Below are positions 4,046 through 41,959 of a stretch of 64,000 nucleotides of DNA, in pieces (within the stretch, counting starts at the first letter, position 1; every line of letters begins with the position of its first letter). A program made the position numbers and the translations under genes. This DNA is from Arachidicoccus soli (GTDB lineage Bacteria > Bacteroidota > Bacteroidia > Chitinophagales > Chitinophagaceae). The notes under the pieces were generated by a model, which was given only the letters and a program-made list of their open reading frames with translations, had not been told where the DNA came from and made no database searches. Location of the stretch: positions 2,170,001 through 2,234,000 of the forward strand of contig NZ_CP032489.1 in assembly GCF_003600625.1 (NCBI RefSeq). Direction: 5' to 3'.

Positions 4046-4130
4046 TAAAACAAATATTCGTTTGTAAAGCTGGTATTTTTTTCTAACAAGTAATCTACAT
4101 TTCCTCTCATCAATTCTACATTTCTTATAA
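4046..4130. promoter_or_regulatory. Conserved PUL operator-like element, site A
   Basis: This 85-bp stretch opens with ACAAATATTCGTTTGT (inverted ACAAA/TTTGT arms). Thirty-three bases after the TTTGTAAA block it carries a 10-bp direct repeat, TCTACATTTC, at 4094-4103 and again at 4115-4124, exactly 21 bp apart (two helical turns). The same layout recurs at 19366, 25452 and, less exactly, at 9151 and 34891. It lies upstream of the minus-strand gene starting at 3839. AraC-type response regulators of HTCS systems commonly bind spaced direct repeats, so this is a likely binding site for the PUL regulator. The rest of the 3840-4195 gap holds no gene that I can see. Confidence 0.6.
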
Positions 4131-4195
4131 ATTTATTAAGAATGCCTTTCCCCTTTCCGGACATTTTCTATAAAGCGTTTAGATGGTTTACTTTC

Positions 4196-6391: not shown

Positions 6392-6464
6392 ATTAATAAG
6401 GTTTACGCAGCCAGAGAAATTAAATTTTCTGAATCTGTTTTACAATTAAAGAAAGAAGTATCTT

Positions 6465-9038: not shown

Positions 9039-9147
9039 CGATACTTTTTTTTAAAAAATAATTAAATAACCTTTCACAGTCTAACGAAAACAAGCGCCAT
9101 TAATTGTAAAAAAATTAAAAAGTAAAACTTTCCCTACCGAATTTGGA

Positions 9148-9195
9148 AAAGCAACATATCCTACAAATAAATTCATACATTTTATATGCTATTTT
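9148..9195. promoter_or_regulatory. Conserved PUL operator-like element, site F (partial)
   Basis: The stretch AGCAACATATCCTACAAATA followed by ATTCATACATTTTATATGC matches the right half of the operator-like element at 19411-19450, where AACATATCCTATCAA precedes ATTCTACATATTTTATAA. The two half-sites are 21-22 bp apart, as in the other copies. It lies 110-160 bp upstream of the GH31 start at 9038 and downstream of the FGE gene. The ACAAATATTCGTTTGT left part is not clear here, so confidence is lower than for sites A, B and D. Confidence 0.45.
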
Positions 9196-9259
9196 CAATA
9201 TAGTTATTTCGCTTTTAGAAGCGATTGGGGTTAATGAAAATCAATAAGAATTGCATTTT

Positions 9260-10213: not shown

Positions 10214-10363
10214 TGAGATAGATAAAAGTATAAAAATGATTTAAGTGTACAAATACAATAAAGAAAATCAGATTCGATGGATGATTAATGATCAATAAAG
10301 TATCCATTCCTTATTTGCGCATAAATATAAAAATTATGCTTTACCTATAATGCATATTGACTT

Positions 10364-11983
10364 TTACATCACATCTGGATCCTTATAAGGCGACCAATAA
10401 TTATGTGTATCTCCTCTGTAAATATATCTATTTCTGGGAAGTGGTAAGGGATCCTGCGTTCGCAACTCCCAGGCCATCATGTCCTGCAACAGTTCCATCT
10501 TTTTACTTTCATATTTTTTGTCTTGAAACAAATCATTTATTTCTCCTTTGTCTTTTGCTAGATGATACATGCGTCCATTGCCTTGCATGTCATACTCTAA
10601 TTTCCATTCATCTTTTCTCAACATTCTTAATGTTCCGCTTTGGGAATAACTGTTCAGTTCGTCAAATTCATTCTTTCCTTTAGCAAGGCATCCTTCCTTA
10701 TAAGGATCTAACTGATGTACACTCGTATAGTCACGTCCTCCAAAGCCTTGTTGTACTATAATACTGGAGAACTCTGCCTTTGGATAATCTTTCCCTTGCA
10801 GCAGCGGCCATAGGCTACGCCCTATAACCCCATCAGGCAATTCCTGTCCGATAATATCACAGATCGTGGGCAGTATATCTATATTGGAGACGTGGGCATT
10901 ATGGGGCGCTTTGTTTTTTGATATCTTAGGGCCGTGCCAAACCATTGGAATCCGAGTTAAACATTCAGGTACCCCAGCTCCTTTTTTGATTAATCCATAT
11001 TCCCCTGTATAATCCCCATGGTCGGCAACAAATAGAAAGATCGTATTTTCATACAATGCTTCCTGTTTCAAAAAATCGAAAAAACGTTTCATTTGGTCGT
11101 CGATCAATCGAAGCATTCCATAATAATTACTCCGTATTCTTGGAATATGTTTTTCATAATCACCATAACCCATTTTTTCCAGTTGATGCTGCATCTTTAG
11201 CTTCTTTCCCTTTACTTTCAAATCTGCTTCTCCTGCAGCCATTGGTGGAAGCTTATCTGGTGGAAACATTGAAAAATAGGGCTCTGCAACCTCATAAGGA
11301 TTATGCGGTTCGGGAATAGAAATATAAAGAAAAAAGGGGTCTTCTTTTCCCTTTAGTGTTTTTATCCAACCGATTCCATCTGAAACAATTCTTGCAGGCT
11401 GTTCCATCTCTGCAGCAAATGGTGCAGCTTTAAAATCTGCATAAAAATGCGTACCGCGTAAGTATTTATTTACCTCTTTAAGCTGAGGGTCATCTACCTG
11501 AGGTTCTCCAAGATGAGAATATGTTTTGAAATAATCAAATTTCTCCGGATGTAAATGCATAAAGGAATGTTCCGTTTTACCTACAATACCCGTCTTATAT
11601 TTTTGTTCATTCAATACATCAATAAGACTTTTGGAATAGGTCGCATCTTGTATATTCCAATTGGACCTTACACGCGTCGCATTGGGTGTGCGGCCTGTTA
11701 ACATAGCCGTCCGACTGGGAACACAGGCAGGAAAAGCACAATAAGACTTGTCAAACCATGTACCATTCTCCGCCAAGCTATCTATAAAAGGCATCGTGTC
11801 CAACCCAAAACCTTCTCGCTTACAGGCATCGGCACGTAGTTGGTCACATAAGACCAAGACAATATTGGGCTTCTTTTGCGGAGCACTATATTTAGAAAAG
11901 GATTTTAGCCCTTTTGGAACAAACGGTGTCAACCCTAAAATACCTAAACGCTCTAATGCAGCTTTGCGCGTAATATTATCCAT
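10364..11983 (-). CDS. Type I sulfatase (full-length copy of a duplicated gene)
   Basis: This 539-residue alkaline-phosphatase-fold sulfatase has the metal-binding CDQLRAD block near residue 46, the maturation motif ACVPSRTAMLTGR with the formylglycine Cys87, GIVGKTEH, and FLFVADHGDYTGEYGLIKKG for the second metal-site aspartate and histidine. The start has a weakly Tat-like stretch (NITRKAALERLGILG) rather than a plain signal peptide. It hydrolyses sulfate esters on the PUL glycan after maturation by the adjacent FGE. From 10353 to 11304 its DNA is almost identical to 41960-42911, which is a truncated copy. Its context places it between FGE and the GH105-type gene. Confidence 0.9.
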   Translation of the reverse strand: MDNITRKAALERLGILGLTPFVPKGLKSFSKYSAPQKKPNIVLVLCDQLRADACKREGFGLDTMPFIDSLAENGTWFDKSYCAFPACVPSRTAMLTGRTPNATRVRSNWNIQDATYSKSLIDVLNEQKYKTGIVGKTEHSFMHLHPEKFDYFKTYSHLGEPQVDDPQLKEVNKYLRGTHFYADFKAAPFAAEMEQPARIVSDGIGWIKTLKGKEDPFFLYISIPEPHNPYEVAEPYFSMFPPDKLPPMAAGEADLKVKGKKLKMQHQLEKMGYGDYEKHIPRIRSNYYGMLRLIDDQMKRFFDFLKQEALYENTIFLFVADHGDYTGEYGLIKKGAGVPECLTRIPMVWHGPKISKNKAPHNAHVSNIDILPTICDIIGQELPDGVIGRSLWPLLQGKDYPKAEFSSIIVQQGFGGRDYTSVHQLDPYKEGCLAKGKNEFDELNSYSQSGTLRMLRKDEWKLEYDMQGNGRMYHLAKDKGEINDLFQDKKYESKKMELLQDMMAWELRTQDPLPLPRNRYIYRGDTHNYWSPYKDPDVM

Positions 11984-12078
11984 GATATTTTTAGTTTATT
12001 TTCAATCTAAGGAACATTAGGATATTTTAAATCATTAGGAAATCTTGCGATTAGCATCTACTATCTTACCCTAAATAC

Positions 12079-13221
12079 TTAACGAAGGAGCGCTGTTGCA
12101 CACCATAACAAAGGAGCCTGGCCGTGTAAGTCGCCAGTATTCTTTTTTCTATTGAGGTAATACTGCCGGTCATTTTTCTTATTGGTTCCTTCGCATACGT
12201 TACGAATATTATTATTATCGATATAACTAATCAATGCCAACCAAGCTTTTCTAGCGGCCGGCCCATAGGTATCCTTATCAAGCCAGCCTTCTTTTACACC
12301 TGTTATGAATGCATAGGTAAACATACCAGTAGCAGAAGTCTCCTCCCAAGCAGTAGCATCATCAACCAACTGCCGCCACATGCCAGTAGGCGCCTGATAT
12401 TTTAATAAAGCTTGCATCATCGAGCGATACCCCTTTAGAATTCTTGGACGGTCGGGAGAATTTTTAGGTAAGACTCGAAGCATTTCTGTCATACCAACAG
12501 CCATCCATCCATTACCTCGCCCCCAGAAAAAGGGTACATCCGGGGCGTGATAAAATAGACCGTTAGGTTGTTGTAATGAATCTAGATAATGTGTCATTTC
12601 TTTAGCCGCACGATGAAGATATATCTTCTTACCTGTTGTGAGATATGCCTGAGTCTGAAGCGAAGTAATCATATACATATCATCAATCCACATACGGGTT
12701 TCCCAAGAAAAGCCTTTTTTATAATAATAGTAAGAAGTTGGCGTAGCCTTTTTGCCAAAGGGCTTTCCCCATTGCTTGTCTGCATATGAAGTTGCCAGAT
12801 TCAGATATTTTTTATCATGCGTCTGTCTGTAAAGTGCAAATGGGACAATACCAAATACCGCAAAATCTACATGATCCGGAACAGGCAGCATGCTTGCCCT
12901 ATTCCCTTCAAGGGGTTGAAAGGCATCCGCTAATTCTTGCTGTAAAGTTTTGTCTTTAGTTATGGCAGCAAATTCTAAGGAGCCAAACCAAGTAATAGTT
13001 ACCGGATAATGAACATAATGTGGCGGTTTATCTTGAATCAAAAAACTGTTCAATGTACCAACAAAGTGATCGGCAATTCGTTTACCAATCTCTTGAGGAG
13101 AATCTCCTTTGGGGAAATTTTTCAAATAGTCCCTACTTTTTTGGGCAGGTAACTGTGTAAAAGCAAAGCAGCATATTATTACTGACAACTCTATAATTCT
13201 TTTTTTTCGCATAAGAATCAT
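12079..13221 (-). CDS. GH105/GH88-type unsaturated glycuronyl hydrolase
   Basis: This 380-residue protein has an N-terminal signal peptide (to about LPAQ, residue 27). It has the alpha6/alpha6-barrel signatures of GH105/GH88: DHVDFAVFGIVPFALYRQT, ETRMWIDDMYMIT with the likely catalytic Asp180/181, FYHAPDVPFFWGRGNGWMAVGM, and WEETSATGMFTYAFITGVK. These enzymes remove the unsaturated uronic acid left at the end of oligosaccharides by polysaccharide lyases. No lyase is visible in the window, so a lyase is either encoded beyond the left edge or supplied elsewhere. The gene is followed by the sulfatase at 10364, 95 bp away. The fold is well supported; GH105 versus GH88 is less so. Confidence 0.85.
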   Translation of the reverse strand: MILMRKKRIIELSVIICCFAFTQLPAQKSRDYLKNFPKGDSPQEIGKRIADHFVGTLNSFLIQDKPPHYVHYPVTITWFGSLEFAAITKDKTLQQELADAFQPLEGNRASMLPVPDHVDFAVFGIVPFALYRQTHDKKYLNLATSYADKQWGKPFGKKATPTSYYYYKKGFSWETRMWIDDMYMITSLQTQAYLTTGKKIYLHRAAKEMTHYLDSLQQPNGLFYHAPDVPFFWGRGNGWMAVGMTEMLRVLPKNSPDRPRILKGYRSMMQALLKYQAPTGMWRQLVDDATAWEETSATGMFTYAFITGVKEGWLDKDTYGPAARKAWLALISYIDNNNIRNVCEGTNKKNDRQYYLNRKKNTGDLHGQAPLLWCATALLR

Positions 13222-13412
13222 TATTTTAACTTTTGTAAATTATAATACTTCGTGAACAACCTATTTTCAAATCTTTATTTTGTAAGCTATGGACAACTAT
13301 TTTAACTCCATGAAGCATCCTATATAAAATAAAGAATTCACGCATCCTATAATTTGGTTTATTCTTTTAAACACTTTTCCAAACTTTTATTTAATTACCA
13401 CTGGAGTTATTT

Positions 13413-13442
13413 GTTCGGCATATCCTGTCTAATATGCCGAAC
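13413..13442 (-). terminator. Perfect 11-bp hairpin downstream of susD
   Basis: GTTCGGCATAT (13413-13423) and ATATGCCGAAC (13432-13442) form a perfect 11-bp stem with an 8-base loop. It lies 43 bp after the susD stop and about 190 bp before the GH105-type gene. There is no long U-run on the minus strand, so it may act as a weak terminator or as an RNA-stabilising structure that separates the levels of SusCD from those of the downstream enzymes. A second pair of GCATCCTATA repeats lies at 13315 and 13342. Confidence 0.55.
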
Positions 13443-13484
13443 GAGTTCAGACCTTTTCACTTTCCAAGACCTCTACTTAGGTCA

Positions 13485-15371
13485 TTACCATCCGTAATTC
13501 TGCACAAGGTTAGTATTTTTATCTATCTCAATTTGAGGAATAGGAAATAAATAATCTTTTTTTGTAAATGTCCTGTTTTGAATTATCACAGTTTTATAAA
13601 ACACTGCTGCTCCTGCGGCTTGACTATTTACATCTAAACCTGTAGAAGCCAATTCCGCCTGACTTGGCTGAGAATTCAACCCATACATAGGACCGTTATC
13701 GACTTGGGTGCCAATCAACCATCTGCGAACATCCCAAAACCGATGATTTTCAAAGGCAAATTCCACCCGCCATTCATTATGAATTCGCGCACGCATCCCA
13801 TCCTTTGTATTATCATTTGAAATAATGGGTAAAGCCGGCATAGAGACTCTTGCCCTTACCTGATTTACCGCATCAAACACATCTTGGGTCGGCGCATCTT
13901 CGTATTCATTCATAGCTTCGGCATAAGCTAAAAGAATTTCCGGATATCTAAAAATAGGATAATTCCTGTTTGCGTTTCCACTCGAGGTTTTGGTATTTAC
14001 TCTTGGGTCGCACCATTTTCTCCATCCATATCCAGTTACATTATTTGTACCAGATTTAGGCCAACCGTCACTCGCACCATTTGCACTTCCATAGTAAGAA
14101 TAGATAGTAGTTCTCGGATGGCTAGCAGAATCCCAATATTCTCCATTAAACATAACAGTTGCATAAAAACGGGGATCCCTGTTTTTATACATATTAGATA
14201 TATTTTTCACACTTCTAAATGCCTTCCCATCCCATAATTTACCATTCCAAAAACCAGTAGAATCATAACCTGAATTAGGATCTGTGATCGGTAAACCATT
14301 GCTCATTTCATAAGTATCTACAAAGTTTTGAAAAACGCTCAATTTACCATGCGCCTTCCAAGCTTTTGAATCCTTTCCATTTGGTAAATAGTTAGACTCG
14401 ACCGTTCTGGTGGCACTAAACATTTTTGGCAAAATCGTTTCATTGTATTCTCTCGAATAAAACAATTGTGCGTAATTATCTATAGGGTTACCAGGGTCAG
14501 GGTTGTATAAGGAATATATACCAAGATCCATTACCGCTTTAGCAGCATCTGCTGCAGCTTTCCATTTGTTCTTATCATAGGTCTGTGAAAAGAGTTGCGT
14601 CCCATCAGGATTTTTGACGCTAGCATACATTGTATTACCATTGAATAATGGGCTAGCCGCATATAGCAATGTGATTGCTTTTAAGGTTAATGCGGCCCCC
14701 TTTGTTATTCTACCAACCTCACTTGGGTTATCCGAATATGAAAGGGGTAGTACAGCAGCTGCAGCATCACATTCTGAAGTGATAAATTTTACAACAGAAT
14801 CCACCGGGCTTCTCATTATATTTAACACATCTGTAGATTCACTAACATCATAAGATTTCTTTACAAGTGGAACCGCTCCGTACCTTCTCAATAATTCAAA
14901 ATAGATCATTGCCCTTAGAAATCTGGTATCGGCTTTATAACCTGGAATACGAGACGAATAATAGTCCTTTTTATCATCCGGAATCTTAGCATTATCAATA
15001 TTCTCTAAGAGAATATTTGCTAATCTGATGTTCTGATAGGAAGGTGTCCAATTTCCCAATGCATTACTTACAGGACTCCAACCACCTGAATTAAAGGATA
15101 ATTCTACAGGACTTTCCCAATGGTTCATGCATTCATCTGTACAAGCATCTAATAATGCACCATTGTATCCTCCGGTTTCTAAAAGACCAAAATCCTGTAT
15201 GGTATTACCATATAAATTTGCCCATATTAATTCAGCATTTGCAATATTCCCTAGAACATCAGCACTAGAAATTGTTTCCGATGGGACTACATTAAGGTAT
15301 TTTTCACATCCATAGAAAGATACACTCCCACATAGAAGAAGAAAAATAGCTATTATCTTATATTTTTTCAT
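13485..15371 (-). CDS. susD: SusD/RagB-type outer-membrane glycan-binding lipoprotein
   Basis: This 628-residue lipoprotein has a signal peptide with the lipobox ending at Cys22 (SFYGC). It has the typical start of SusD mature proteins (EKYLNVVPSETIS), TPR-like helices including RFLRAMIYFELLRRYGAVPLV, and the C-terminal family blocks YPIFRYPEILLAYAEAMNE, VNQVRARVSMP and WRVEFAFENHRFWDVRRW. It caps the SusC transporter at the cell surface and binds glycan. The gene follows susC at 15426 with 54 bp between them, the usual SusC-SusD order. Its binding specificity cannot be read from the sequence. Confidence 0.95.
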   Translation of the reverse strand: MKKYKIIAIFLLLCGSVSFYGCEKYLNVVPSETISSADVLGNIANAELIWANLYGNTIQDFGLLETGGYNGALLDACTDECMNHWESPVELSFNSGGWSPVSNALGNWTPSYQNIRLANILLENIDNAKIPDDKKDYYSSRIPGYKADTRFLRAMIYFELLRRYGAVPLVKKSYDVSESTDVLNIMRSPVDSVVKFITSECDAAAAVLPLSYSDNPSEVGRITKGAALTLKAITLLYAASPLFNGNTMYASVKNPDGTQLFSQTYDKNKWKAAADAAKAVMDLGIYSLYNPDPGNPIDNYAQLFYSREYNETILPKMFSATRTVESNYLPNGKDSKAWKAHGKLSVFQNFVDTYEMSNGLPITDPNSGYDSTGFWNGKLWDGKAFRSVKNISNMYKNRDPRFYATVMFNGEYWDSASHPRTTIYSYYGSANGASDGWPKSGTNNVTGYGWRKWCDPRVNTKTSSGNANRNYPIFRYPEILLAYAEAMNEYEDAPTQDVFDAVNQVRARVSMPALPIISNDNTKDGMRARIHNEWRVEFAFENHRFWDVRRWLIGTQVDNGPMYGLNSQPSQAELASTGLDVNSQAAGAAVFYKTVIIQNRTFTKKDYLFPIPQIEIDKNTNLVQNYGW

Positions 15372-15425
15372 AATTAAAATGATTTATTGTTGTATCCTTA
15401 GATAATTTTTTAAAGCCTACAAAAT

Positions 15426-18400
15426 TTAAAAAGTGAAATTGATACCCGCATTAATAACTTTTTGTTGCGGATAGGTACCCGTTCCCCCGTTCGCAATTTC
15501 CGGATCAAAGATTTTCAATTTATCCCATGTAAGTAGATTAATGCCATTTACGAAAATGCGAGCTTTTTTAATACCCATTCTTTTCATCCAAATTTCTGGG
15601 AGGCTATATCCTAATTCAACAGTTTTAAGTCTCAAATAATTACCCGAACGCAACCAAAAAGTAGATGATTGTTGATTATTCGTGTTTACTTGTGATGACA
15701 TACGAGGGAATTCGTAATTACGATCTGGATTAGATGCAACCCAATGATTATTAATAACATCCTCCAATACACCTGAAAAACGAGCAAAGGGAAAAATACC
15801 ACTTCCTATCGTCATCAGTGAGCCACCAAGCCCTGATTGAAAAAAGACACTTACATCTACATTACTATAGTGATAAGAAAGGCTAAGTCCCATTATTGTT
15901 GTGGGGTTCGTCACACCAGGAATATATCCTTGATCTAAATTATTGATAACACCATCTCCATTTAAGTCTTTATACTTAATATCTCCAGGTTGTATGGTAC
16001 CTCCAAAAAAAGATTGATCCGGACTAGATGCAATATCTGCAGCATCTTTAAATAAACCAAGAGCAGTATATCCTTGATGCTGTCCTATCTGTGTACCAGT
16101 CGTAGCTTGCCATTCACGTCCTGTATATTGGGGTTCAGAATAATATATTATCTTATTCTTTGCATAAGAAGCATTAAATCTGATATCATAGCCTTGTTTC
16201 CCAAAATTTTTGCGATGATCAATGGAAAATTCGAAACCATGATTGTTAATGATACCTCCATTTGTAGGAGGGACATCCATTAATCCAAGATCTGCAGGAA
16301 TTAATTGTGAGGTCAGTAAAATATTGGTTCTGTGATCCCAGAAATAATCTGCCGTTAAAGATAGCGCATTCTTCCAGAGAGACAAATCCAGCCCAATATT
16401 TGCATTTTTAGATTTTTCCCAAGTAATTCCAGGATTCCCGGTCTGAACTTCTTGTGCTCCTGCATAGCTATTACCATCATAGTTTTGTCCGAATTTATAG
16501 CCACTAGCAGTAATGGTCCAAGTTGATAAATATAAGAACCTGCTTCCTCCAATTTGATCATTACCTACAACACCAAAGGATCCTCTTAATTTTAAATTAT
16601 CAATGAAATCGAATGTTGAGTTATCCGCTATAAATTTTTCTTTTGAGACAACCCACCCTGCCGATACGGCTGGGAAAAAACCTAAACGATGGCCCGGTGC
16701 AAAGTTCTCAGACCCATTATATCCTCCGTTCAATTCCAATAAGTATCTGTTGTTATAATTGTAAGACACACGTCCTACTAAACCATCATATTTATAAGGC
16801 AACCCCAAAATTGCATTAGCTTGTCCACTACTTATAGCATCAAAAAAACTCGATTGATTGTATACCATTACAGCGTGCACTGAATGTTTTCCAAAATTTC
16901 TATCATAGTTTAAATAGTATTCTAAAGTTGTTCTACGATGACCATTTGCAGTAATATTATAACTCAAGGTTCCATCTCCTTGTCTTAAAGTTTGATAAGT
17001 TCCATTAGCAGCTAGATCTGTTACTGTGTCCGCAAGAATCCCTGGCAATAGCCCATATTGATAAGCTGAACCACTCAATGATCGATCAACATTTCTATAA
17101 TTTAAGTTATCGAAAGACATACGCACACGAGTGCTTAATCCTTTCACTAATGAACTCATATCCCACTTAAACCCAGCGGTGGATTGTAGTGTAGTTTCAA
17201 AATTTCTTTGATATCCAGAATTAACCAATAAATCATAAGGCGATGTTACAGATGGCATACCTGGAACGGATCCATCAGGATTCGTTAATGGGAAGTACCA
17301 TGAAGGCGTCTGTTTTATGTCACCAAATATACTACTCGCAGAAGTGCCTGGATAATTCCTGTCACGCACAATTGCACCTAAATTCAATTCCATGGTTAAG
17401 CTCTTCGTAATCTGTAAATCAATATTTGAGCGAAAGTTATATTTATTTGTAACAGCTTGAATATCGTATTGTTTTATCTGATCTTCAAAATTATACAAGC
17501 CATTTTGTTTCAAATAAGACATTGATACGAAATACTTGGCGAAATTGGTTCCCCCAGATACGTTCAAGTTGCCTTGCGTTAAATAAGAATAAGGCTTCAA
17601 CATTACATCCTCCCAATCTACATTTGGATAAAGATATTGGTAGGCCGGATGAGTCCTATCTTTATATAAGTTCAATACAGAATCGGTATATGGGTTTGTC
17701 ATTCCATCATTTACCAACCCCTCACCATATAATTTCAAAGCATCATAAGAATCTGCATATTTTGGTAATCTGGTTGGAGATTGCCAGCCATTCTGTGCGG
17801 TAAAACTTATCGAAGGAGTAGCATTCGTACCTCTTCGGGTTGTCACCAAAATAACACCATTTGCTCCTTTTATACCATAAATAGCGGTGGAAGCAGCATC
17901 TTTTAAAATAGTAATGTCTGATATTTCATTCGGATCTAAATTTGAAAAGTCTCTCTGTATACCATCTACCAATACAAGAGGAGCGTTACTACCTGTAGTA
18001 CCCAACCCTCTTATATATAAATTGGCTCCATCAGCGCCAGGCTCTCCACTATTTTGAATGGTAATCAAACCGGGTAACCTTCCAGCCAGTGCATTGCTGA
18101 GATTTGCAACGGGGCTTTGCAAAAGTTCTTTCTGACTTACAGAAGAGATCGCACCAGTAATATCCAATTTTCTTTGAGTGCCGTATCCAACGACAACCAC
18201 ATCATTTAGAGAACTATCCGCTATCTCTTTTAGTTTAACAGTTATATTTTTCTCTGCTCCTAAATAAATATTTTGAGAAAGAAACCCTATATAGGTTACC
18301 CTCACAGTATCCCCATTTTTTGCTTCTAAAGTAAAAGCACCATTTGCATCTGTTAGCGCTCCCTTATTATTCGAGCCAATCACTAAAAGCGAAGCACCTT

Positions 18401-18587
18401 GGATGGCAATACCACTTGAATTTGTTACTTGACCATGGTATATTTCAATTTTATTCTGTGCAAAAGTTTGAATAGAGTACATTGTTAATAAGAGGGGCAA
18501 GCATATTGAGATTAATTTTTTGAGCCACTCAACCTCAGAATAATTTCTTTTATTTTTGTATGTAGGAATATATTTCATATGAATCAA
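15426..18587 (-). CDS. susC: SusC/RagA-type TonB-dependent outer-membrane transporter
   Basis: This 1053-residue TonB-dependent receptor has a signal peptide ending near FAQ, after an unusually long charged lead (about 35 residues before the hydrophobic core). A carboxypeptidase-regulatory-like domain follows at about 48-125 (GQVTNSSGIAIQGASLLVIG). Then come the TonB-box/plug region (VVVVGYGTQRKLDITGAISS, IRGLGTTGSNAPLVLVDGIQ, DITILKDAASTAIYGIKGAN) and a beta-barrel ending in the terminal phenylalanine of NAGINFTF. It imports oligosaccharides with the downstream SusD. An alternative start at the second Met (codon 4) is possible. A long leader region of 1.2 kb precedes it and carries operator-like site B. 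Confidence 0.95.
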   Translation of the reverse strand: MIHMKYIPTYKNKRNYSEVEWLKKLISICLPLLLTMYSIQTFAQNKIEIYHGQVTNSSGIAIQGASLLVIGSNNKGALTDANGAFTLEAKNGDTVRVTYIGFLSQNIYLGAEKNITVKLKEIADSSLNDVVVVGYGTQRKLDITGAISSVSQKELLQSPVANLSNALAGRLPGLITIQNSGEPGADGANLYIRGLGTTGSNAPLVLVDGIQRDFSNLDPNEISDITILKDAASTAIYGIKGANGVILVTTRRGTNATPSISFTAQNGWQSPTRLPKYADSYDALKLYGEGLVNDGMTNPYTDSVLNLYKDRTHPAYQYLYPNVDWEDVMLKPYSYLTQGNLNVSGGTNFAKYFVSMSYLKQNGLYNFEDQIKQYDIQAVTNKYNFRSNIDLQITKSLTMELNLGAIVRDRNYPGTSASSIFGDIKQTPSWYFPLTNPDGSVPGMPSVTSPYDLLVNSGYQRNFETTLQSTAGFKWDMSSLVKGLSTRVRMSFDNLNYRNVDRSLSGSAYQYGLLPGILADTVTDLAANGTYQTLRQGDGTLSYNITANGHRRTTLEYYLNYDRNFGKHSVHAVMVYNQSSFFDAISSGQANAILGLPYKYDGLVGRVSYNYNNRYLLELNGGYNGSENFAPGHRLGFFPAVSAGWVVSKEKFIADNSTFDFIDNLKLRGSFGVVGNDQIGGSRFLYLSTWTITASGYKFGQNYDGNSYAGAQEVQTGNPGITWEKSKNANIGLDLSLWKNALSLTADYFWDHRTNILLTSQLIPADLGLMDVPPTNGGIINNHGFEFSIDHRKNFGKQGYDIRFNASYAKNKIIYYSEPQYTGREWQATTGTQIGQHQGYTALGLFKDAADIASSPDQSFFGGTIQPGDIKYKDLNGDGVINNLDQGYIPGVTNPTTIMGLSLSYHYSNVDVSVFFQSGLGGSLMTIGSGIFPFARFSGVLEDVINNHWVASNPDRNYEFPRMSSQVNTNNQQSSTFWLRSGNYLRLKTVELGYSLPEIWMKRMGIKKARIFVNGINLLTWDKLKIFDPEIANGGTGTYPQQKVINAGINFTF

Positions 18588-18967
18588 TTGAGTTTAAGAC
18601 AACCATTTAATAAACAGCTAATTATTTTATTTTTTTTATTGACTTATGTGTATAAATTTTGATTCCTTATAATTTACCCTATTCCTTCCTAAATGTTTAT
18701 CAATTAGGAAGTAAGGAGAATAGGGATTCTAAGAAGTTTTCTTATTTATATATCTTTGATGCTCTCAAAAATGTTTCCTTTAAAAATGCATTCAGCTCCA
18801 AGATTAGTTCTGAAAAAACTTTCCTTATAGAAGAATTGCATGTTAGCCTGTCGAAACGAGTAATGCTTTTGAATTATTGTCTTTTGACCTTTCCTCATAA
18901 TTTTTAAGAAATATATAAGTAATTCCAGTTTTGACTTTACACTTATTAGGCAAAATCCTCCGGCAAC

Positions 18968-18986
18968 AGGAGGCAAAGAGCCTCCT
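18968..18986. other. Short perfect hairpin AGGAGGC/GCCTCCT
   Basis: A 7-bp perfect stem with a 5-base loop lies about 380 bp upstream of susC. There is no T-run on either side. On the plus strand the arm looks like a Shine-Dalgarno sequence, but no start codon follows in a credible frame. It could be a transcript structure in the susC leader. Confidence 0.3.
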
Positions 18987-19363
18987 AGCATATTTATCAA
19001 ACCCTATCCCTTTTAAATAATTCTTGTATGCAAGAATTTCAACCCTTTCATTTATTTACGACAAACACTTCCTAATATTGAAACACATATCAGCAATCGG
19101 CTCCTTTTTATATTCAATTACATTCTAGATGGTTTCCTGATCAATAACAGTAATCATATAATGACAAATAAAACTTCTAATAAACTAGGTTTTCTTCTTA
19201 CAAAAGGCAGCATAATTTTTTTTTAATTTTAAAAGTTAATTTCAAAAATTTCTTTCCAAAATATTGATCAATCTTAAGATAAAGACCTATTACGTCTTGT
19301 AAATCGAAAATTCTCTGAGGGCCCCTGCTCCATTCAATTTTTCATTCTTTTAACTTAAATACT

Positions 19364-19450
19364 AAAACAAATATTCGTTTGTAAAATTGCGGCTTTTATT
19401 TAACAAGCTATCAACATATCCTATCAACAATTCTACATATTTTATAATTT
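19364..19450. promoter_or_regulatory. Conserved PUL operator-like element, site B
   Basis: This copy starts with AAACAAATATTCGTTTGTAA, whose core is identical to site A. Thirty-three bases after the TTTGTAAA block it shows TCAACATATC at 19411-19420, then TCTACATATT at 19432-19441, 21 bp apart. AT-rich sequence (TATAATTTTATTAAT) follows. It lies about 780 bp upstream of susC (18587), in the gene-free leader. Conservation with sites A and D over a span with no coding constraint indicates regulatory selection. Confidence 0.65.
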
Positions 19451-19750
19451 TATTAATACTTTCTTCTTAAATATTGAAATAAAGTAAACTAAATACAATA
19501 CGATCATGTTAACGGCTATACTTTCTTCTTAATTGCCTTCTTCATAACATTTATATATCTAATACTTATACAATAAATCGTATAAAAGCTGAATTTCTAT
19601 TAATTTCTTCGGATCTGATTGCGTATAGTGTCCTATTATTAATTAGATGGTTGCATTCAGATTCCATCGCAGGATGATTCCCTTACCCTTGCGTTTACAA
19701 GCCTTCAAGAAGGAGTTTCACCGGTTTGCGAAGACCTTGCATAGCAATTA

Positions 19751-19818: not shown

Positions 19819-22728
19819 TTACTTTCCTATTGTCGGCTCAGGCCCCAGATATGACCTTTTCATTCCACCAAAATCAATTACAATTTTTTGAATAACCATT
19901 CCCGGATCGCCGGCAATTAATTTTAAGATATGCTTACCCGGTTTATCAATACTGAAAGTCGTCGTATTGATAGCGGCGTTTCTGATAACATTCGATTTCC
20001 AGGAGAAAGAATACTCATCCGATGCCGTGGTCGCCCAGTGCGTATAACTATCGTCTATTTTAATTCCATACCGTGTTTCATGTTCTTTGTTCCTGGCAAA
20101 AACAGGTAATGCATAAGTGTAAACTGTTACAGATCCAGCATCTGTCGTATAAAAATCATATTCAGTACTTGAAGAGTTCCATGCATGATCAGTCACATCT
20201 CCCAATTGCAAACTATTCCCATTATAGCCCAGCTGTTTAACTACTTGTACCTTTACCCCTTGTTTTTCTGTTTTTCTATTAAACTTACTGGGGTCAATAG
20301 AAACCACTCCATTATCTTCTACCGGCATACCTTTAACTTCTTTTACAGGAGCATTTTTAGGATTAAATAATGAAACATATACAAGCTCAGTTTTATTTGC
20401 CCCGGTTATTTGTATACTAGCCTTGATATCGCTACCTATAGGAGCCTTCGACCAGTCCACGGAAACCCAAATATCATCTTGTGTACCTGTGTTTCCTTCT
20501 GTTTTACTTAATTGAAGCCAGTTACTATTAGTGGTAGCGCTCCAACTCAATGCTTGCTTGCCTTTATTGTATACTTCTATTTTGTATCTCCCTTTAGTAA
20601 AAATACTAAAACGAGGAAGTATATGATAACTACTAAAACCATTGATACCATCTTCGCCAGAAACAAAAATCCCCATCGCGGCGCTTTCAGGTAAATTAAT
20701 TTGTTCTGTTGGTGCTGTTTGAGGTTTAGGAAGTTGGTCAGGTGCGGTCATAATACCATTCCATTTTCCATTCAGCAACCCATTATAATGTTTGGTAATA
20801 AGCGCAATGCTATCGTGATAAATAGTTACATCTTTACTTAACTGATTGGTTAAAGAACGGCCTTGCCTTGCGTACCAACGATTCTTTTGTGCAACCAGCA
20901 TCTTTTTATTCATCAGATCAGCCCCTTTAACAGGATAGTAGACCAATTCATAGAAAGCGGGTACATATTCTTTAGGTAAATCTTCCATAATACCTTTGGC
21001 TTGCGCAGATATGGCATCATACTCATTTAGTCTATTTTGTGCTTCATTGTAATTCTGAAAAGAAAAATCGGTATTAATAATATGCTCTTCAGAGAACATG
21101 CTTTTCCAATCAAAATCCCAACCCATATATTCAGGTTTGCGTTCAAAGCCTAAACGATAATAATTATGCATTATATCCGCTAAATCATTTTTGTATTTTT
21201 CTCCAAAAATAGAGGCTAAGAAACTGGATTCATAATCAGGAATATTATCATAATTGATTTTATTTATATTCCAGGCCATGTCCATAAAAAATTGAATCCC
21301 CAATTCTCCTGGTTTAAGATCACCAACATTTAATAACCAATAACGTTTTGCCCCTGTTTCATAAGCTTTATGCATTTCCTCATAAATTAAAGCCGGAGGA
21401 GTCGTATTAATCCATAAGTAATCATTGGGCTCCCCTAAATATGAAATATGATAATATACACCTGCACCGCCTGATCGTTCTTCTTCCTTACTGTCGCTTA
21501 AGCGCTTGATATAACCAAAATTATCATCAGGCCAAACCAACGTGATATCATCAGGCAACTTCATTCCCTGTTCATAAATGTTTAAAACTTCTTTATAAGG
21601 CACAAATATTTGCGGTATTGAATCAATAGGCTTTTTTATATATTTCTCAAGAATACCTCTTTCATCTCTAATCACACTTTCTAACACATTAACTTTACTA
21701 TATCCTTTGGGTACATCCGCCATAGGACTGTCATGAATACCGCGAAGCCCCATGGTATATATATTCTCATACGGAGAGTTTTCTCTTACTCTCTTATCTA
21801 GTACACTTAATATTCCATCTTTATTGGTCACATAATTCCAATCGCCATTCATTTTATGACTCCATTCACTCGCATTGTTAAACAGCAAAGGCTCTGTATG
21901 ACTAGAGCTCATAATGATGGCAAAGCTGTCAGCTACCAATTTATTCTTTGGGTATTTATTGAATGCAGTCGGTGGGTGCATAGCTGGTGCAAGTGTATTG
22001 GCTTTTAGACGTAAAAGAAGTTCACAAATCCTTGCATAGGTATTAGGCCCGATACTCTTGATATTGGGATCCATATTTTTGGAAGCCCATGGACGCATCC
22101 CCCAATCTTCATCATTGATAAATATGCCTCTAAATTTCACCGATGGTTCTTTTGAACTATAATCGATGTTTGGTATGTATATATTTTTTTGCTTTTTCAC
22201 TGGAACGTCTGCCCACCAATACCAGGGAGAAACCCCGATAGCTTTAGAAATTGTAAAAGTACCGTAAGCCGTTCCGCGTCTGTCACTTCCAACAATTACC
22301 AAGGCTTGTGATACTTTTGGGAATGGGTTTTTTATAACTTTAATTATAAACTGCTCCCACCCTCCACGGATTGAATCTACATTTATCTTTTTACTGCTGA
22401 TAAGTTTATCTATTAGTTTATTTTCGCCAAGCGTACCTATAATGACAACAGTTTTTACGGTAGGATTTGATGAGCTAGTCACTGTTGGCTCTTCTCCTGA
22501 AACGCTACTTATATCTTTTGCAAATAAATGTGCAACTTTAGCCACAACTTCAGCATCTGCCTGATCATAATAAATAGTGGAGATGTGTTTCTCTGCAACT
22601 AAGGGAAAAGCATTTTCACCTTTTTGCACTTTATTTTCTACCCTTATTTGGGCAGATCCCGGAAAACTCATTCCTAAAGCTAAGCCAAGCAGACCAACCC
22701 AATACAACTTCATCTTCATATATTTCAT
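19819..22728 (-). CDS. GH115 alpha-glucuronidase
   Basis: This 969-residue exported protein (signal peptide to about GSAQ, residue 27) matches GH115 in order: an N-terminal domain with VIIGTLGENKLID and VSQALVIVGSDRRGTAYG, the SPWYWWADVPVKK block, KFRGIFINDEDWGMRPWA, LKANTLAPAMHPPTAFNKYP, SSSHTEPLLFNNASEW, WPDDNFGYIKRLSD, and a C-terminal Ig-like domain with LPRFSIF and WLQLSKTEG. GH115 enzymes remove (4-O-methyl-)glucuronic acid from internal residues of xylan, and some act on arabinogalactan. Together with GH67 at 4196 this gives both internal and terminal glucuronate removal. It is transcribed on its own and followed by a good terminator. Confidence 0.92.
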   Translation of the reverse strand: MKYMKMKLYWVGLLGLALGMSFPGSAQIRVENKVQKGENAFPLVAEKHISTIYYDQADAEVVAKVAHLFAKDISSVSGEEPTVTSSSNPTVKTVVIIGTLGENKLIDKLISSKKINVDSIRGGWEQFIIKVIKNPFPKVSQALVIVGSDRRGTAYGTFTISKAIGVSPWYWWADVPVKKQKNIYIPNIDYSSKEPSVKFRGIFINDEDWGMRPWASKNMDPNIKSIGPNTYARICELLLRLKANTLAPAMHPPTAFNKYPKNKLVADSFAIIMSSSHTEPLLFNNASEWSHKMNGDWNYVTNKDGILSVLDKRVRENSPYENIYTMGLRGIHDSPMADVPKGYSKVNVLESVIRDERGILEKYIKKPIDSIPQIFVPYKEVLNIYEQGMKLPDDITLVWPDDNFGYIKRLSDSKEEERSGGAGVYYHISYLGEPNDYLWINTTPPALIYEEMHKAYETGAKRYWLLNVGDLKPGELGIQFFMDMAWNINKINYDNIPDYESSFLASIFGEKYKNDLADIMHNYYRLGFERKPEYMGWDFDWKSMFSEEHIINTDFSFQNYNEAQNRLNEYDAISAQAKGIMEDLPKEYVPAFYELVYYPVKGADLMNKKMLVAQKNRWYARQGRSLTNQLSKDVTIYHDSIALITKHYNGLLNGKWNGIMTAPDQLPKPQTAPTEQINLPESAAMGIFVSGEDGINGFSSYHILPRFSIFTKGRYKIEVYNKGKQALSWSATTNSNWLQLSKTEGNTGTQDDIWVSVDWSKAPIGSDIKASIQITGANKTELVYVSLFNPKNAPVKEVKGMPVEDNGVVSIDPSKFNRKTEKQGVKVQVVKQLGYNGNSLQLGDVTDHAWNSSSTEYDFYTTDAGSVTVYTYALPVFARNKEHETRYGIKIDDSYTHWATTASDEYSFSWKSNVIRNAAINTTTFSIDKPGKHILKLIAGDPGMVIQKIVIDFGGMKRSYLGPEPTIGK

Positions 22729-23050
22729 TTTTTAATAAAAGTACCTTAGTATAAATTTAAAACTTTAGCAATAAGACCCGGACTCCTGCCCATTTATAAT
22801 CCTATTAAAGGAGATAAAAACTTATCTATTACCCGTTAATTCTGCTAGTATTCTCTCATCATTTATATCACACAACTCTAAACCAAAACAGATAAAAGAA
22901 AGTCTGGAAATGTTTAGCCGGATCTCTTTTACAAAAGTTATTTTATAACGGCTCTTGTTATTTCAATTATTTTTTTAAATCATACATACAAAACCTTACT
23001 CTTAGTGTGCCTTTCAATATTGATGTCCAGTTTTTAAGAATTTCCCACTT
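22729..23050. other. Gene-free gap upstream of GH115
   Basis: These 322 bp between the galM stop and the GH115 start carry no open frame of interest and no clear copy of the operator-like element. They presumably hold the GH115 promoter. I could not pick out a convincing Bacteroidota TTTG/TAnnTTTG pair. Confidence 0.4.
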
Positions 23051-24214
23051 TTATTTTTTCACCGAAAAAATATATTCCGATTTAGTATGATAAACTTGCC
23101 CTGGTTTTAACTCCGTTGTGGGAAATGAGGGCTCATTGGGGGAATCAGGAAAATGTTGTGTCTCCATCGCAAAGGCTGTCCTGAAACTGTCTTTCACTCC
23201 ATTATTAAACGTGTTGGCTGCATTCATAAAATTGCCACTATATACTTGCAAGCCGGGCTGGTCTGTGTATACCCGCATTTCTATGCCTGACTTATCTCCA
23301 TCAACTATCGCAGCTAAATGCCAATCATTGGTACTATCCAATACATAATTGATATCGTAGCCTTTACAGTTTTTTAATTGCTGATTATCCGCATCTATTC
23401 TCGAACCCATCGTCATGGGCTTTCTAAAATCAAATGGCGTATTGGTGACGGATGCTATTTTACCTGTAGGTATTAATGTAGTGTCTACTGGCGTATAGTT
23501 GCTGGCAAATATCTGAAATTCGTGATTTAGTATAGTCCCTGAACCTTCTCCGTTTAAATTGAAAAAGCCGTGATTGGTCAGGTTTACGACTGTTGGCTTA
23601 TCGGTACGGGCTTCATATTCCATCTCTAAGCCATTTTTATTATTTAGATGATAGGTGACTTGTACATTCATATTACCGGGGAAGCCTTCTTCCATATCTT
23701 TGGACACTCTTGTAAAGACAATAGTGCTGCTATCGGGTTGTGTTGCATTGAAAACCTGATATTGAAAACCTTTTTTCCCGCCGTGTAATGTGTTGGGGCC
23801 GTTGTTTAAGAATAAATGATATTGTTTGCCTTCCAAACTAAAGCTGCCTTTGGCTATACGGTTGCCAAACCTCCCAATCGTCGCACCGTAATAGGGCTCT
23901 GTTGATTTTTGATAGTCGGCTACGCTCTTGAAGCCGCATACTACATTTACCATTTTCCCATTTTTATCCGGCACTTGCAGGCTTACCAAACGGCCTCCAA
24001 AATTGGTAAAGGTGGCGACCATCCCGTTGGCATTTCTGAGTATGTATAAATCGGTATTCATGCTATCAACTGTGGTCTCAAAACCTGACTTATCCAACAA
24101 TACAGAAGATTTATTGTTATCAGTTTTTGTTTGGGAATTGTGACAAGAGAACAAGATGGCACAGCTAAGGCTTGCGCCTAAAACAGTTCTTATGTGTTGT
24201 TTATTCAATGGCAT
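23051..24214 (-). CDS. galM: Aldose 1-epimerase (mutarotase), lipoprotein
   Basis: This 387-residue GalM-family protein has a lipoprotein signal (LFSC, Cys24), so it is likely anchored in the periplasm. Family blocks run in order: TFTNFGGRLVSLQVPDKNGK, YYGATIGRFGNRIAKGSF, GPNTLHGGKKGFQYQVF, VVNLTNHGFFNLNGEGSGTI (the conserved catalytic-site His), a GYDINYVLD block, and AMETQHFPDSPNEPSFPTT with the C-terminal Glu. It interconverts alpha and beta anomers of released sugars. It follows the GH5-like gene by 12 bp, so the two form an operon. A 5' fragment of a second, divergent copy is present at 35290-35621. Confidence 0.93.
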   Translation of the reverse strand: MPLNKQHIRTVLGASLSCAILFSCHNSQTKTDNNKSSVLLDKSGFETTVDSMNTDLYILRNANGMVATFTNFGGRLVSLQVPDKNGKMVNVVCGFKSVADYQKSTEPYYGATIGRFGNRIAKGSFSLEGKQYHLFLNNGPNTLHGGKKGFQYQVFNATQPDSSTIVFTRVSKDMEEGFPGNMNVQVTYHLNNKNGLEMEYEARTDKPTVVNLTNHGFFNLNGEGSGTILNHEFQIFASNYTPVDTTLIPTGKIASVTNTPFDFRKPMTMGSRIDADNQQLKNCKGYDINYVLDSTNDWHLAAIVDGDKSGIEMRVYTDQPGLQVYSGNFMNAANTFNNGVKDSFRTAFAMETQHFPDSPNEPSFPTTELKPGQVYHTKSEYIFSVKK

Positions 24215-24226
24215 GTTTTGTGTTTT

Positions 24227-25306
24227 TTATTTTTCTGAATTTAGTTTCCGGATAAGATCTGTTTCGTCTTTTCTGTAGGGGGTAAAGTCTTTTCTAAAAA
24301 TGTCGTGAAACCATTCTGCAGGCTGGCTCCCATCTGGAATGGGGTGATCCCAGGCATAGATGGTATTGGTTTTCCCTTCTACAAATCCCCAGTTGATGGC
24401 GCCTACATCTTCTTTTTTCAACATAGGTAGTATATTTGAAAAACGGCTGTTTCTTGGTCTTGCCATATATTCCGTACAAATCAGTGGTTTACCAAAGGAT
24501 TTTAGTAGCTGTATGACACGCAGATGCATGGGGGGCTCTTCATAATCGTGATAGGTAATTATATCTGAATTGGCTATTTGAAAAGCATTGAGTTTTTCAA
24601 AATTCCAGTCCCATAAACCTGCTGTAATAGGCTGATCGGGGTTTACGGCTCGGGCCCAAGTGAAAATGGCTTTTAATAAGGGTAGCGATTGAATGCCTTT
24701 ACCGCTGTTGCCGGGTTCATTGTATAAGTCCCAGCCTAAGATGCGTTTGTCGTGTTGAAAGGTCGTAAGTATATCTTTTACATATTTCTCCAAGCCGGGG
24801 AAATTGGCCGCGTTTTCTGAAGCCGGTTGGCCAGGGTCTTGCATCCATCCTGAATTATGCACCCCTGGTTTGGGGGCCGGCTGTAGGCCAGCTTTAGGGT
24901 CTTTATTCCAGCAATCGTCAAAGAAAACAAACAGGGGTTGGATGCCATGTTTTGCAGCGATTGCTAAAAACTTATTCATTCTTTTTTTGAAGCCTTGGGG
25001 GTCTTCTTTCCAGGCTACGCTATGTAGGAAAACACGCATCGTATTAAAACCGATACCTTGAGCCAAACCCAATTCCTTATCAATTAAATCGGGGCTAAAG
25101 GTATCGGCCTGCCACATCTCCAACTGATTTACCGCATTACTGGGGATATAATCGGCTCCGCTTAGCCACTTGTGTGCTCCATACCATTTGTTGGCTTGAT
25201 TTACGGTCCATACTTTACCTATTACTTCGCTATTGCCCTGCGCTCGTGAATTGATACTTGCCAATACAAATAGTCCTACTAAAGCAGATTGAAAGAGTTT
25301 TCTCAT
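24227..25306 (-). CDS. GH5-like clan GH-A glycoside hydrolase
   Basis: This 359-residue exported enzyme (signal peptide to about SRAQ, residue 23) has a TIM-barrel pattern of clan GH-A. GFNTMRVFLHSVAW carries the conserved Arg, GWDLYNEPGN the acid/base Glu197, TYHDYEEPP a substrate-contact His, and LICTEYMARP the nucleophile Glu279. The length suits a single catalytic domain of GH5 or a near family. The substrate (beta-xylan, beta-mannan or another) cannot be told. It is the first gene after the divergent promoter region shared with the sensor kinase at 25620, and operator-like site D lies between them. Confidence 0.75.
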   Translation of the reverse strand: MRKLFQSALVGLFVLASINSRAQGNSEVIGKVWTVNQANKWYGAHKWLSGADYIPSNAVNQLEMWQADTFSPDLIDKELGLAQGIGFNTMRVFLHSVAWKEDPQGFKKRMNKFLAIAAKHGIQPLFVFFDDCWNKDPKAGLQPAPKPGVHNSGWMQDPGQPASENAANFPGLEKYVKDILTTFQHDKRILGWDLYNEPGNSGKGIQSLPLLKAIFTWARAVNPDQPITAGLWDWNFEKLNAFQIANSDIITYHDYEEPPMHLRVIQLLKSFGKPLICTEYMARPRNSRFSNILPMLKKEDVGAINWGFVEGKTNTIYAWDHPIPDGSQPAEWFHDIFRKDFTPYRKDETDLIRKLNSEK

Positions 25307-25449: not shown

Positions 25450-25520
25450 CCTTTGTAAAATTGCATGTTTTCATTTACAAATATTCTACATATCCTATCA
25501 ATGATTCGACGTTCTTTATT
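25450..25520. promoter_or_regulatory. Conserved PUL operator-like element, site D, in the divergent promoter region
   Basis: TTTGTAAAATTGCATGTTTT starts at 25452. Thirty-three bases after the TTTGTAAA start lies TCTACATATC (25485-25494), then TCGACGTTCT (25506-25515), 21 bp apart. This is the same spacing as at sites A and B. It lies between the leftward GH5-galM unit and the rightward kinase-regulator genes, so it may control both and allow autoregulation. No gene is present in the rest of the 25307-25619 gap. Confidence 0.6.
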
Positions 25521-25619
25521 ATTCTCCCGAAGAAAGTGTTTGGAGTCATTGAATAACTTAACTTCCATTATGAAAAATGAATTTCATTATTCGTTTATAA
25601 TTATTACATTATCTGATTT

Positions 25620-28600
25620 ATGACAACAAGGATAAAACTGTTCCAAACAACCTGCATTTGTCTTTTATTTCTATTTGCCCACCATGTTGCCGCATTTAGT
25701 CAACCCTATTATTTTAGGCATTACCAGGTAGAAAAAGGTTTATCAAATAACACTGTATTTTGCTGCGTACAAGACAAACAGGGGTTTATATGGATGGGCA
25801 CAAAAGAGGGGCTAGACCGATTCAACGGCTATAGTTTTGATGTATATAGAAGTGGTGACAATAGTGGATTAGGCGATAGTTATATACGCAGCTTATATAT
25901 TTCTCCGAATGGAGATATGTATGTAGGCACCAGAATTGGGGTATATAAATACTTGCCTTCTAAGGAAAAGTTTTTAAAAATTTTAAAAACAAATAAAGAG
26001 GTTACAGATATTCAAAAAGACACATTTGGTAAACTCTGGATTATCTCCGACGGCAATCTAATAGTTTATAATGAACAAACAGATGTGCAAACAAACTACT
26101 CTAATCTGCATCATTTCTCTGCTAATTCTATATGCATCACTCCCGACAAAAGTTTATGGATTGCCACTCCCGAAGGACTACTTAAAAAATGGCTTCCACA
26201 AACTCAATCGTTTTCAACCTATGACGTATTTAAGAATGAGCAAACTAATTTATCAAAATGGATAGAAAGAATTATCCCAACCTCTAGCGGGAAAATCCTT
26301 ATCGGCACCGCCAATTATGGTGCAAAATATTTTAATCCAGAAGATAGCAGTTACAAAAATATCCTTACCAGAAATAACAGTAACAATGGTATTTACGTAC
26401 GTGACTTCTTGCAAACTTCTGACAGCACCATTTGGATGGCGACGGAATCGGGTTTGTTTATTTATAATTTAAAGAAAGCCACTTATACCAATCTTACTCA
26501 GAACTACGGCGACATTTATTCATTAAGCGATAACGCTATTTACACCCTTTGTAGAGATAAAGAAGGCGGTATTTGGGCCGGAACTTATTCAGGAGGCATT
26601 AATTATTACCATCCGCAATATTCATTTTTTGAAAAATATTCTCCACTCAACAGCAACACCACCTCACTTTCCGGCAATTTAATAAGTGAAATTTGTCCCG
26701 ATAGTTATGGCAATCTTTGGATTGGCACAGAAGACGCTGGGTTAAATCAATTTCACCTTAGAAACAAAGTAATAACTCACTTTAAAGCGGACGATAAAAA
26801 ATATAGTTTAGACCCCAACATACACGCCTTACTGAATATTGGTTCTAAATTGTTGATTGGCACATTTGAACATGGGCTTGACATTTTGGATATTCCTTCA
26901 GGAAAAATTATCCAGCATTACCCTTCAAAAAATGCAGATAAAGTGTTGAAAAGCAGTTTTTTTGTTTCGCTATGTCGCACTCAGGATGGGATAATATATA
27001 CAGGCACCCGATTTGGCTTATATACGGTTGACTTAAACACTGGAAAATTTAAAAACGTAAATACAGATTTATCCAATTATTTTATTCATTCACTCAGAGA
27101 AGATAATCATCAAAATTTATGGATAGGCACCATGGGAAATGGTTTATATAAATTATCATTAAAAACACATCAATTAGAAAATTTAAAGAGTGCCTTTGCG
27201 GCAAGTAATGGTGCAGGAATTAATTGGATAACGACCATATTCAACGACGACTTTAATAACATCTGGGTTGGCACAGAAGGAAGCGGGCTATTTAGATACA
27301 ATGCTGCAAAGAAAATATTTGAGAACTATTCGAAAAATGCAAATTTCCCAGGCAATACAATTTATGAAATTTTGGAAGATTCTAAACATACCTTTTGGAT
27401 TACTACCTCCAAAGGTTTGGTACATTTTAATCCACTAAGCAAAAAGGTTATAAACATTTATACGACAGCCAATGGGCTATTGAGCGATCAGTTTAATTAT
27501 AGCTCAGCTTATAAAGATTCTACGGGCAGAATGTATTTTGGCTCAGTAAAAGGAATGATAAGCTTTAATCCTGACAATATAAAATATTCCAATTTTCGCC
27601 CACCTGTTTATATACTGTCGCTGCAGGCAGGAGATAAAAAAATAAAGTTTCCTGAAGTGGAGCGCAAGGCTACTACAGTAGAGCTGACAAGCGAACAATC
27701 TTCCTTCTTTATAAATTTTTCCGCATTAAGCTATGTAGCTCCTGAAATGACGCATTATAGATATCTTATGAAAGGTATCGATAAACATTGGATAACCATT
27801 GAATCTAATCAGCCAGTTGCATATACAATGTTACCTCCAGGTAAATACACTTTTAAGGTACAGGCTGCCAACCAAAACGGACAATGGGCAGGCAATATTG
27901 CTCAATTGAAAATAAAGATTTTACCTCCTTTCTGGCGAAGTGATACTGCTTATTTATTATATAGCTTATTGACTATTGCTATCCTATTTTTCATTATTCG
28001 TAGTTATCATTTAATGATGGTAGAAAAAGGCAGAAGGCAAATAGAAGAAATAGAACATGAAAAGGACAAAGAAATATATAAATCTAAAATAGATTTCTTT
28101 ACGAATGTCGCCCATGAGATAAGAACACCCTTAACTTTAATAAAAGCTCCCTTAGAGAAAATAATTAAGCAAATAGAAACACTGCCTCACATAAAAAAGT
28201 ATTTGCTTACTATGCAACGTAATACAGATAGAATAGTAAAACTAAGTGAAGAGTTACTCGACTTTAGAAAAACGGAAGTCAATGGTTTTCAACTTGACTT
28301 GTTGCCACAAGACATCAATGCGATTATAAAAGAAATCGTAGAGAATTTTGAAGAAGCGATATTCTCTAAGAAATTACAATTGCAGCTACATATATCTCAT
28401 CAACCATTAATCGTCAATATTGACAAAGAAGCATTTACAAAAATCATTTCCAACCTCTTAAACAACGCTATAAAATATGCCAAAAATGAAATAATTATCA
28501 CAACTATACATCTTTCAAAGACCTCGAATAACGTCACCATTGTATTTCAGAATGACGGAATTAAGATTGCACCCGAAATGTCAGAGAAAATATTTGAAGC

Positions 28601-31852: not shown

Positions 31853-31872
31853 TTCTATAATATTTACAGATT

Positions 31873-41914: not shown

Positions 41915-41959
41915 AGAATAATACTTTACTTTGATTTGATTAAAAATATTTTTAAATTT

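Follow-up and report, generated by a model that had tools for sequence, protein, structure and literature searches.

A tandem 21-bp element at four promoters of an Arachidicoccus soli glycan locus: candidate operators of a neighbouring two-component regulator

Introduction

When a non-coding element recurs upstream of several transcription units of one glycan locus, does it serve as the operator of a shared regulator, and of which one? This question is raised by a 64,000-nt stretch of Arachidicoccus soli DNA (the window; bases 2170001-2234000 of a single 4.10-Mb contig). Its glycan locus comprises two SusC/SusD pairs, GH67, GH115, GH88, GH31, several sulfatases and an aldose epimerase, and also encodes a sensor kinase and a separate response regulator. 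On the sequence evidence below, four copies of the element are very probably tandem activator operators joined to promoters, each predicted to be bound by two monomers of the response regulator encoded at 28768.

Results

Target genes and the sensor pair

The element precedes four target units, and the sensor pair lies between two of them:

719-3839, minus strand: target unit 1, a putative operon of a 716-aa protein (1689-3839; family not recognised) and a SASA esterase (719-1576)
4196-18587, minus strand: target unit 2, SusC1, SusD1, then GH88, sulfatase, FGE-type protein, GH31 and GH67; presumed transcript extent
19819-25306, minus strand: target unit 3, a putative operon of a 359-aa protein, aldose epimerase and, after a 322-bp gap, possibly GH115
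30110-34842, minus strand: target unit 4, SusC2 and SusD2
25620-28766, plus strand: sensor histidine kinase with propeller repeats, Y_Y_Y, HisKA and HATPase (Pfam)
28768-29553, plus strand: response regulator with receiver and AraC-type HTH

The 359-aa protein (24227-25306) matched no family in Pfam or NCBIfam, and the GH5 label given to the gene at 25306 in the earlier note was dropped. Copies of this protein, 46-73% identical, occur in 7 of 10 related loci examined. As the families of the 359-aa and 716-aa proteins are unrecognised, we are unsure of the substrate of the locus. Some segments are present twice. From the aldose epimerase gene, stretches of 112 and 143 nt recur upstream of susC2 at 94% identity (35290-35604 versus 23833-24199), likely a duplication scar. 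A 300-nt sulfatase segment is duplicated at 98% identity (10346-10645 and 41953-42252); overlapping the second copy is a 316-aa sulfatase-like frame whose matches cover the later part of sulfatase models only.

Together, the two sensor proteins contain propeller repeats, Y_Y_Y, HisKA, HATPase, receiver and HTH_18 (Pfam). These domains are divided between two frames: the 1048-aa kinase stops at TAA (28764-28766), with no receiver or DNA-binding domain found in it by Pfam, and the regulator begins at ATG 28768. As a single HTCS polypeptide carries sensor kinase, receiver and AraC DNA-binding domains, the pair lacks the defining HTCS feature. In all likelihood, it works like an HTCS. Regulator residues 9-260 aligned with a solved hybrid two-component regulator at 3e-52. 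The regulator also has the inhibitory S/CHIP-DK signature, which is defined by S/C-H-I-P in the receiver loop, a D in helix 1 of the DNA-binding domain and a K in its recognition helix. SHIP lies at residues 80-83, and D152 and K191, 39 residues apart, were assigned by the published 39-residue spacing and not from a structure. For the sensor, a search of named genomes gave matches of only 21-35% identity.

Anatomy of the element

The earlier note had described three clear copies with spacings of 33 and 21 bp. We found the same arrangement: TTTGTAAA starts at 4061, 19378 and 25452, the first repeat unit begins 33 bp further on and the second another 21 bp on, start to start, at all three sites. 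Read in gene direction, sites 1-3 share an ATAA block upstream, then the pair of repeat units, and a conserved box. The two partial copies that would have brought the number to five fared differently. The one upstream of susC2 (34963) proved to be a full fourth member in exact register, and the one at 9148 found no support. Together with seven sites found in three genus relatives, the four window sites form a gapless 74-column alignment, from which the anatomy and register of the sites are read directly. The scores below are from the 74-column model of these 11 sites:

4064-4137, minus strand: site 1 (about 51 bits); element start 4123, unit 1 4131-4111, unit 2 4110-4090; precedes the 716-aa gene and SASA esterase
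4065-4072, minus strand: -7-like box of site 1, CAGCTTTA (4072-4065), predicted start near 4060
19381-19454, minus strand: site 2 (about 52.5 bits); element start 19440, unit 1 19448-19428, unit 2 19427-19407; precedes susC1
19382-19389, minus strand: -7-like box of site 2, CAATTTTA (19389-19382), predicted start near 19377
25455-25528, minus strand: site 3 (about 50 bits); element start 25514, unit 1 25522-25502, unit 2 25501-25481; lies before the 359-aa gene and galM and diverges from the sensor gene
25456-25463, minus strand: -7-like box of site 3, CAATTTTA (25463-25456), predicted start near 25451
34904-34977, minus strand: site 4 (about 51 bits); element start 34963, unit 1 34971-34951, unit 2 34950-34930; precedes susC2/susD2
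34905-34912, minus strand: -7-like box of site 4, CAACTTTA (34912-34905), predicted start near 34900

The orientation of all four sites is that of the minus strand, toward the genes downstream. Since the site has a direction and site 3 faces away from the sensor gene, this site probably does not serve to activate the sensor pair.

Twenty-one columns are invariant in the 11-site alignment, among them A10 T11 A12 A13, G22 A23 A24 T25, T29 G30 A31, A33, G43, C66 A67 and T70 T71 T72. Self-similarity of the operator part peaked at 21 bp (0.604; next 0.414). The repeat unit is therefore 21 bp long, and the 10-bp unit proposed earlier is a part of it. Within single window sites, units 1 and 2 agreed at 14, 12, 11 and 9 of 19 positions. 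Unit 1 has the core TNATAA and unit 2 the core TGAKA, each followed by a second block containing GA. The TGA of unit 2 is present in all 11 sites; in unit 1, only one window site has TGA, and the remaining three have TTA or TAA.

The downstream block is a probable promoter element

The TTTGTAAA block, previously taken as part of the operator, corresponds to the -7-like box of a probable promoter, to which a palindrome is added at three sites. Passages of PMC7366714 and PMC9723704 report the -7 consensus TAnnTTTG for Bacteroides and flavobacteria; as marks of a primary-sigma Bacteroidota promoter, we used this -7 sequence and TTTG at -33. CAnnTTT (columns 66-72) is invariant in the 11 aligned sites and fits TAnnTTTG at A and TTT, with a deviating first base. 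The TTT of the box (CAnnTTTA) lies 41 bp after the TGA of unit 2, and unit 2 ends just upstream of the expected position of a -33 element. Among 22 family sites, no trimer stood out at -33. Family promoters L150, L152, L156 and L146 have in common a CGATTGC some 14-19 bases downstream of the -7 TTT.

Three of the four promoters also have the palindrome-like block:

4050-4068, minus strand: TTTACAAACRAATATTTGT, a palindrome-like block of 19 bp that overlaps with the predicted start and the -7 box
19367-19385 and 34890-34908: further exact copies of the block

This raises the alternative that TTTGTAAA forms part of the palindrome TTTACAAACRAATATTTGTTT, itself a second operator on which a repressor would cover the start site, so that the promoters would need both activation and derepression. 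Such a repressor would supplement the activator operators and not replace them. The three places are the only mismatch-free ones in the genome, all in the locus, although site 4 has otherwise diverged from sites 1 and 2. However, the palindrome is missing from site 3 and was not seen in the seven relatives' sites, and at two or three mismatches the genome holds 38 places, about twice the 17 of a reversed-pattern control, with 14 of 27 loci examined intergenic. We consider the repressor unlikely, if worth keeping in mind. The stretch of roughly 790 nt that separates susC1 from the predicted start of site 2 (18588-19377) contains short frames only and had no Rfam match; at gathering thresholds, Rfam found no family anywhere in the window.

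The element has four strong sites in this genome

A 25-base two-unit pattern with up to three mismatches matched only sites 1-3 in the whole genome (reversed-pattern control, 0). With a 64-column matrix from these three sites, 34963 ranked fourth at 28.6 bits, the next place scoring 11.8. The repeat part of the three-site matrix alone gave no separation, with 12.5 for 34963, 12.4 for the 9148 copy (scored at 9180) and 12.2 for an unrelated place. With a matrix built from the seven relatives' sites only, the window sites took the top four ranks (scores from 38.1 to 27.6; maximum of 40 simulated windows 11.1). The operator part of this matrix gave 34963 a score of 25.0, with 9148 absent from the best eight; the relatives-derived columns after the operator did not by themselves recover the window promoters. 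Site 4 is thus set apart from 9148 by its promoter block and by the relatives, not by its repeat part. The copy at 9148 was dropped, with a unit spacing of 23, no promoter block in register and 3.0 bits in the 74-column model.

Across the 4.1-Mb genome, the 11-site model found four strong sites at 50.6-52.4 bits, followed by 16.9. It scored every position inside the window and the best 150 first-look candidates per genome elsewhere, so weak sites may be missed.

The element accompanies the regulator across the genus

We compared six genus genomes (the window genome and G001-G005), a small sample. The model gave 14 strong matches, four in this genome, five in G001, two in G003, three in G004 and none in G002 or G005. 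The weakest scored 34 bits and the next match in any of the six genomes 16.9; 11 of the 14 are training sites of the model. The three others lie before a SusC-like gene (G001 129644), before a 460-aa gene followed by SusC/SusD (G004 contig 27) and before an ortholog of the 359-aa gene adjoining a regulator ortholog (G001 120334). The earlier note had asked whether a genome scan would find the element scattered away from glycan genes, and no such scatter was seen: all 14 matches precede glycan-locus genes. Downstream on the same strand, the nearest gene is SusC-like in six cases, the 359-aa gene or its ortholog in four, the 460-aa gene before SusC/SusD in two and another locus gene in two (the 716-aa gene here and a 443-aa gene beside a sulfatase in G001). 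A regulon inside and perhaps outside the locus had been suggested. The inside part stands with four sites; outside the locus, this genome has no strong site, and G004 has one on another contig.

Co-occurrence with the regulator was directly visible. Orthologs 63-65% identical to the regulator were present in G001, G003 and G004 only, the best response regulators of G002 and G005 being 44-45% identical; the element is thus found in the four of six genomes with a 63-100% identical regulator and is absent from the two others. This tracking supports the earlier proposal of a regulator site, with the regulator at 28768 as the protein that most likely controls it. A site lies in the divergent intergenic region of the sensor, in the same orientation, in the window and in three of the five genus relatives (G001, G003, G004). 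In G001, the sensor is in two frames and the regulator ortholog is some 59 kb away. The genus sites were first found with a window-derived matrix, and on the repeat alone the G004 site fell below the 95% null (15.8 versus 16.9).

Could another regulator occupy the sites, such as a global regulator or the 46% identical response regulator paralog encoded at 2476048? The paralog is from the same protein family, and specificities can overlap among AraC-type regulators. Yet G002 and G005 have a paralog-type regulator and no element, the paralog's own upstream region carries a different tandem (the same 21 and 41 bp in other letters), and the element adjoins the regulator at 28768. We regard this alternative as improbable.

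The geometry is shared across the family

The circularity of a genus search with a window-derived matrix is avoided by a family-wide test. A search of 294 family genomes for sensor relatives found a match at 1e-200 or better in 75. From the 43 loci retained, 36 intergenic regions could be used, all of them bordered upstream by a divergently oriented gene; they represent 24 genera, the window's own and 23 others. Seven loci were left out, among them L072 and L147, which have no usable sensor frame, and L075 and L079 (gaps below 90 bp, upstream gene not divergent). The window and two genus relatives with the element were deliberately excluded from the 36 regions. Seven regions come from sensors that are fused by frame length, and several genera contribute more than one region.

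In a motif-free test of 30 spacings on the 36 regions, 21 bp gave z scores of 8.26, 7.82 and 7.59 at three window widths, and the second-best direct-repeat spacing, 11 bp, gave 3.1-5.2. A smaller test on 15 regions was weak (z 2.57), with 21 bp still the highest of 30 spacings. The regions share a core near TTGAGACA and then TGAnACGA 21 bp on. When each genus was left out in turn, the motif was stronger on the expected strand than on the reverse in 35 of 36 regions, and its score exceeded all 50 first-order Markov simulations in 30 (the exceptions were L065, L073, L074, L076, L157 and L164). A re-trained reverse-strand control (total 940.9 versus 927.7) was discarded as invalid, since training can converge on the same motif.

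The distance to the promoter is equally regular. A matrix trained on all 36 sites gave 31 of them a score above 15; of the 31, 27 had sufficient length for the test, and in 20 of the 27 a TTT lies 40-41 bp after the second TGA (other offsets, mean 1.12 and maximum 4). The window sites themselves scored only 12.5, 11.3, 10.4 and 21.7 on the family matrix, on which single simulated regions reached 18.3; the letters of the window have therefore drifted. With midpoint rooting, six fused sensors (L064, L155, L162, L068, L069 and L071; 1324-1332 aa) formed one well-supported clade among unfused ones. By frame length, L162, L075 and L076 are fused. The nested position of the fused clade suggests that sensors have switched between fused and unfused on more than one occasion.

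That the copies are mere remnants of a promoter segment duplicated within the locus, with no shared regulator, is a reading to which 4023-4148 and 19340-19465 (75% alike over 126 nt) and the other duplicated window segments lend something, but one we give hardly any credence, as conservation is uneven, with cores and -7 box kept and the stretch between them not, as the element also lies at the sensor's divergent region in three other species, and as the regions of 24 genera as a set favour the same spacing.

Discussion

Overall, these data suggest a model of tandem activator operators, in which we infer binding, phosphorylation, activation and the ligand. Periplasmic sensing of a sugar from the polymer of the locus would render the kinase (25620) active, which would then phosphorylate the separate regulator (28768). 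Two regulator monomers would bind head to tail on the tandem site, with the downstream monomer next to RNA polymerase; as the two head-to-tail units measure 21 bp each, the monomers can sit side by side on one DNA face, two helical turns apart. The bound regulator would recruit RNA polymerase to a weak promoter, and the four units would switch on together. What had been an operator-like element thus becomes a four-promoter regulon with an assigned regulator, whose binding is predicted, and a testable geometry.

Beyond the locus, we think it fairly likely that fused and unfused HTCS-type regulators of the family follow one rigid code, with two 21-bp units and a TTT 40-41 bp after the second core. 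If so, the regulator would replace the -33 contact, letters would drift while the geometry stays, and regulons would be predictable from sequence across the family.

In a classical two-component system, kinase and regulator are encoded by separate adjacent genes, as in the window. The classical comparison has an OmpR-type output; the window pair differs in its propeller-type sensor and AraC-type output, as in HTCS. The element itself resembles an HTCS-type operator, being a direct repeat of about 21 bp upstream of glycan-locus units and conserved upstream of orthologous units. According to the parts of Ravcheev et al. 2013 (PMC3878776) used here, direct-repeat motifs were predicted for 16 HTCS regulators of Bacteroides thetaiotaomicron, with a mean of 21 bp between tandem sites, and interpreted as a dimer on one DNA face. 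Like the window sites, these motifs lie upstream of SusC/SusD and glycan genes; the likeness is one of arrangement and spacing, not of motif letters, and in B. thetaiotaomicron sensor and regulator are one protein, whereas they are two in the window. As motifs with 21-bp periodicity were published in 2013, this kind of element was already known. The passages and section of PMC3878776 covered report no fixed distance to a -7 box.

The S/CHIP-DK modules of HTCS, with D1344 and K1383 39 residues apart like D152 and K191 here, are tied in the part of PMC11253607 consulted to the challenge of a fused kinase and regulator, whereas the window regulator is unfused. If the rigid code holds, SHIP-DK would not be a remedy for fusion, because unfused regulators keep it. 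What is unusual here is the unfused pair together with the rigid promoter geometry; in the literature searched, mostly listings outside the subscription journals, we found no description of an unfused pair with a 21-bp operator and a family-wide fixed -7 distance. The geometry provides a means of assigning operators to HTCS-type regulators in bacteria other than Bacteroides, and two properties usually discussed jointly, kinase-regulator fusion and the tandem 21-bp operator, here come apart.
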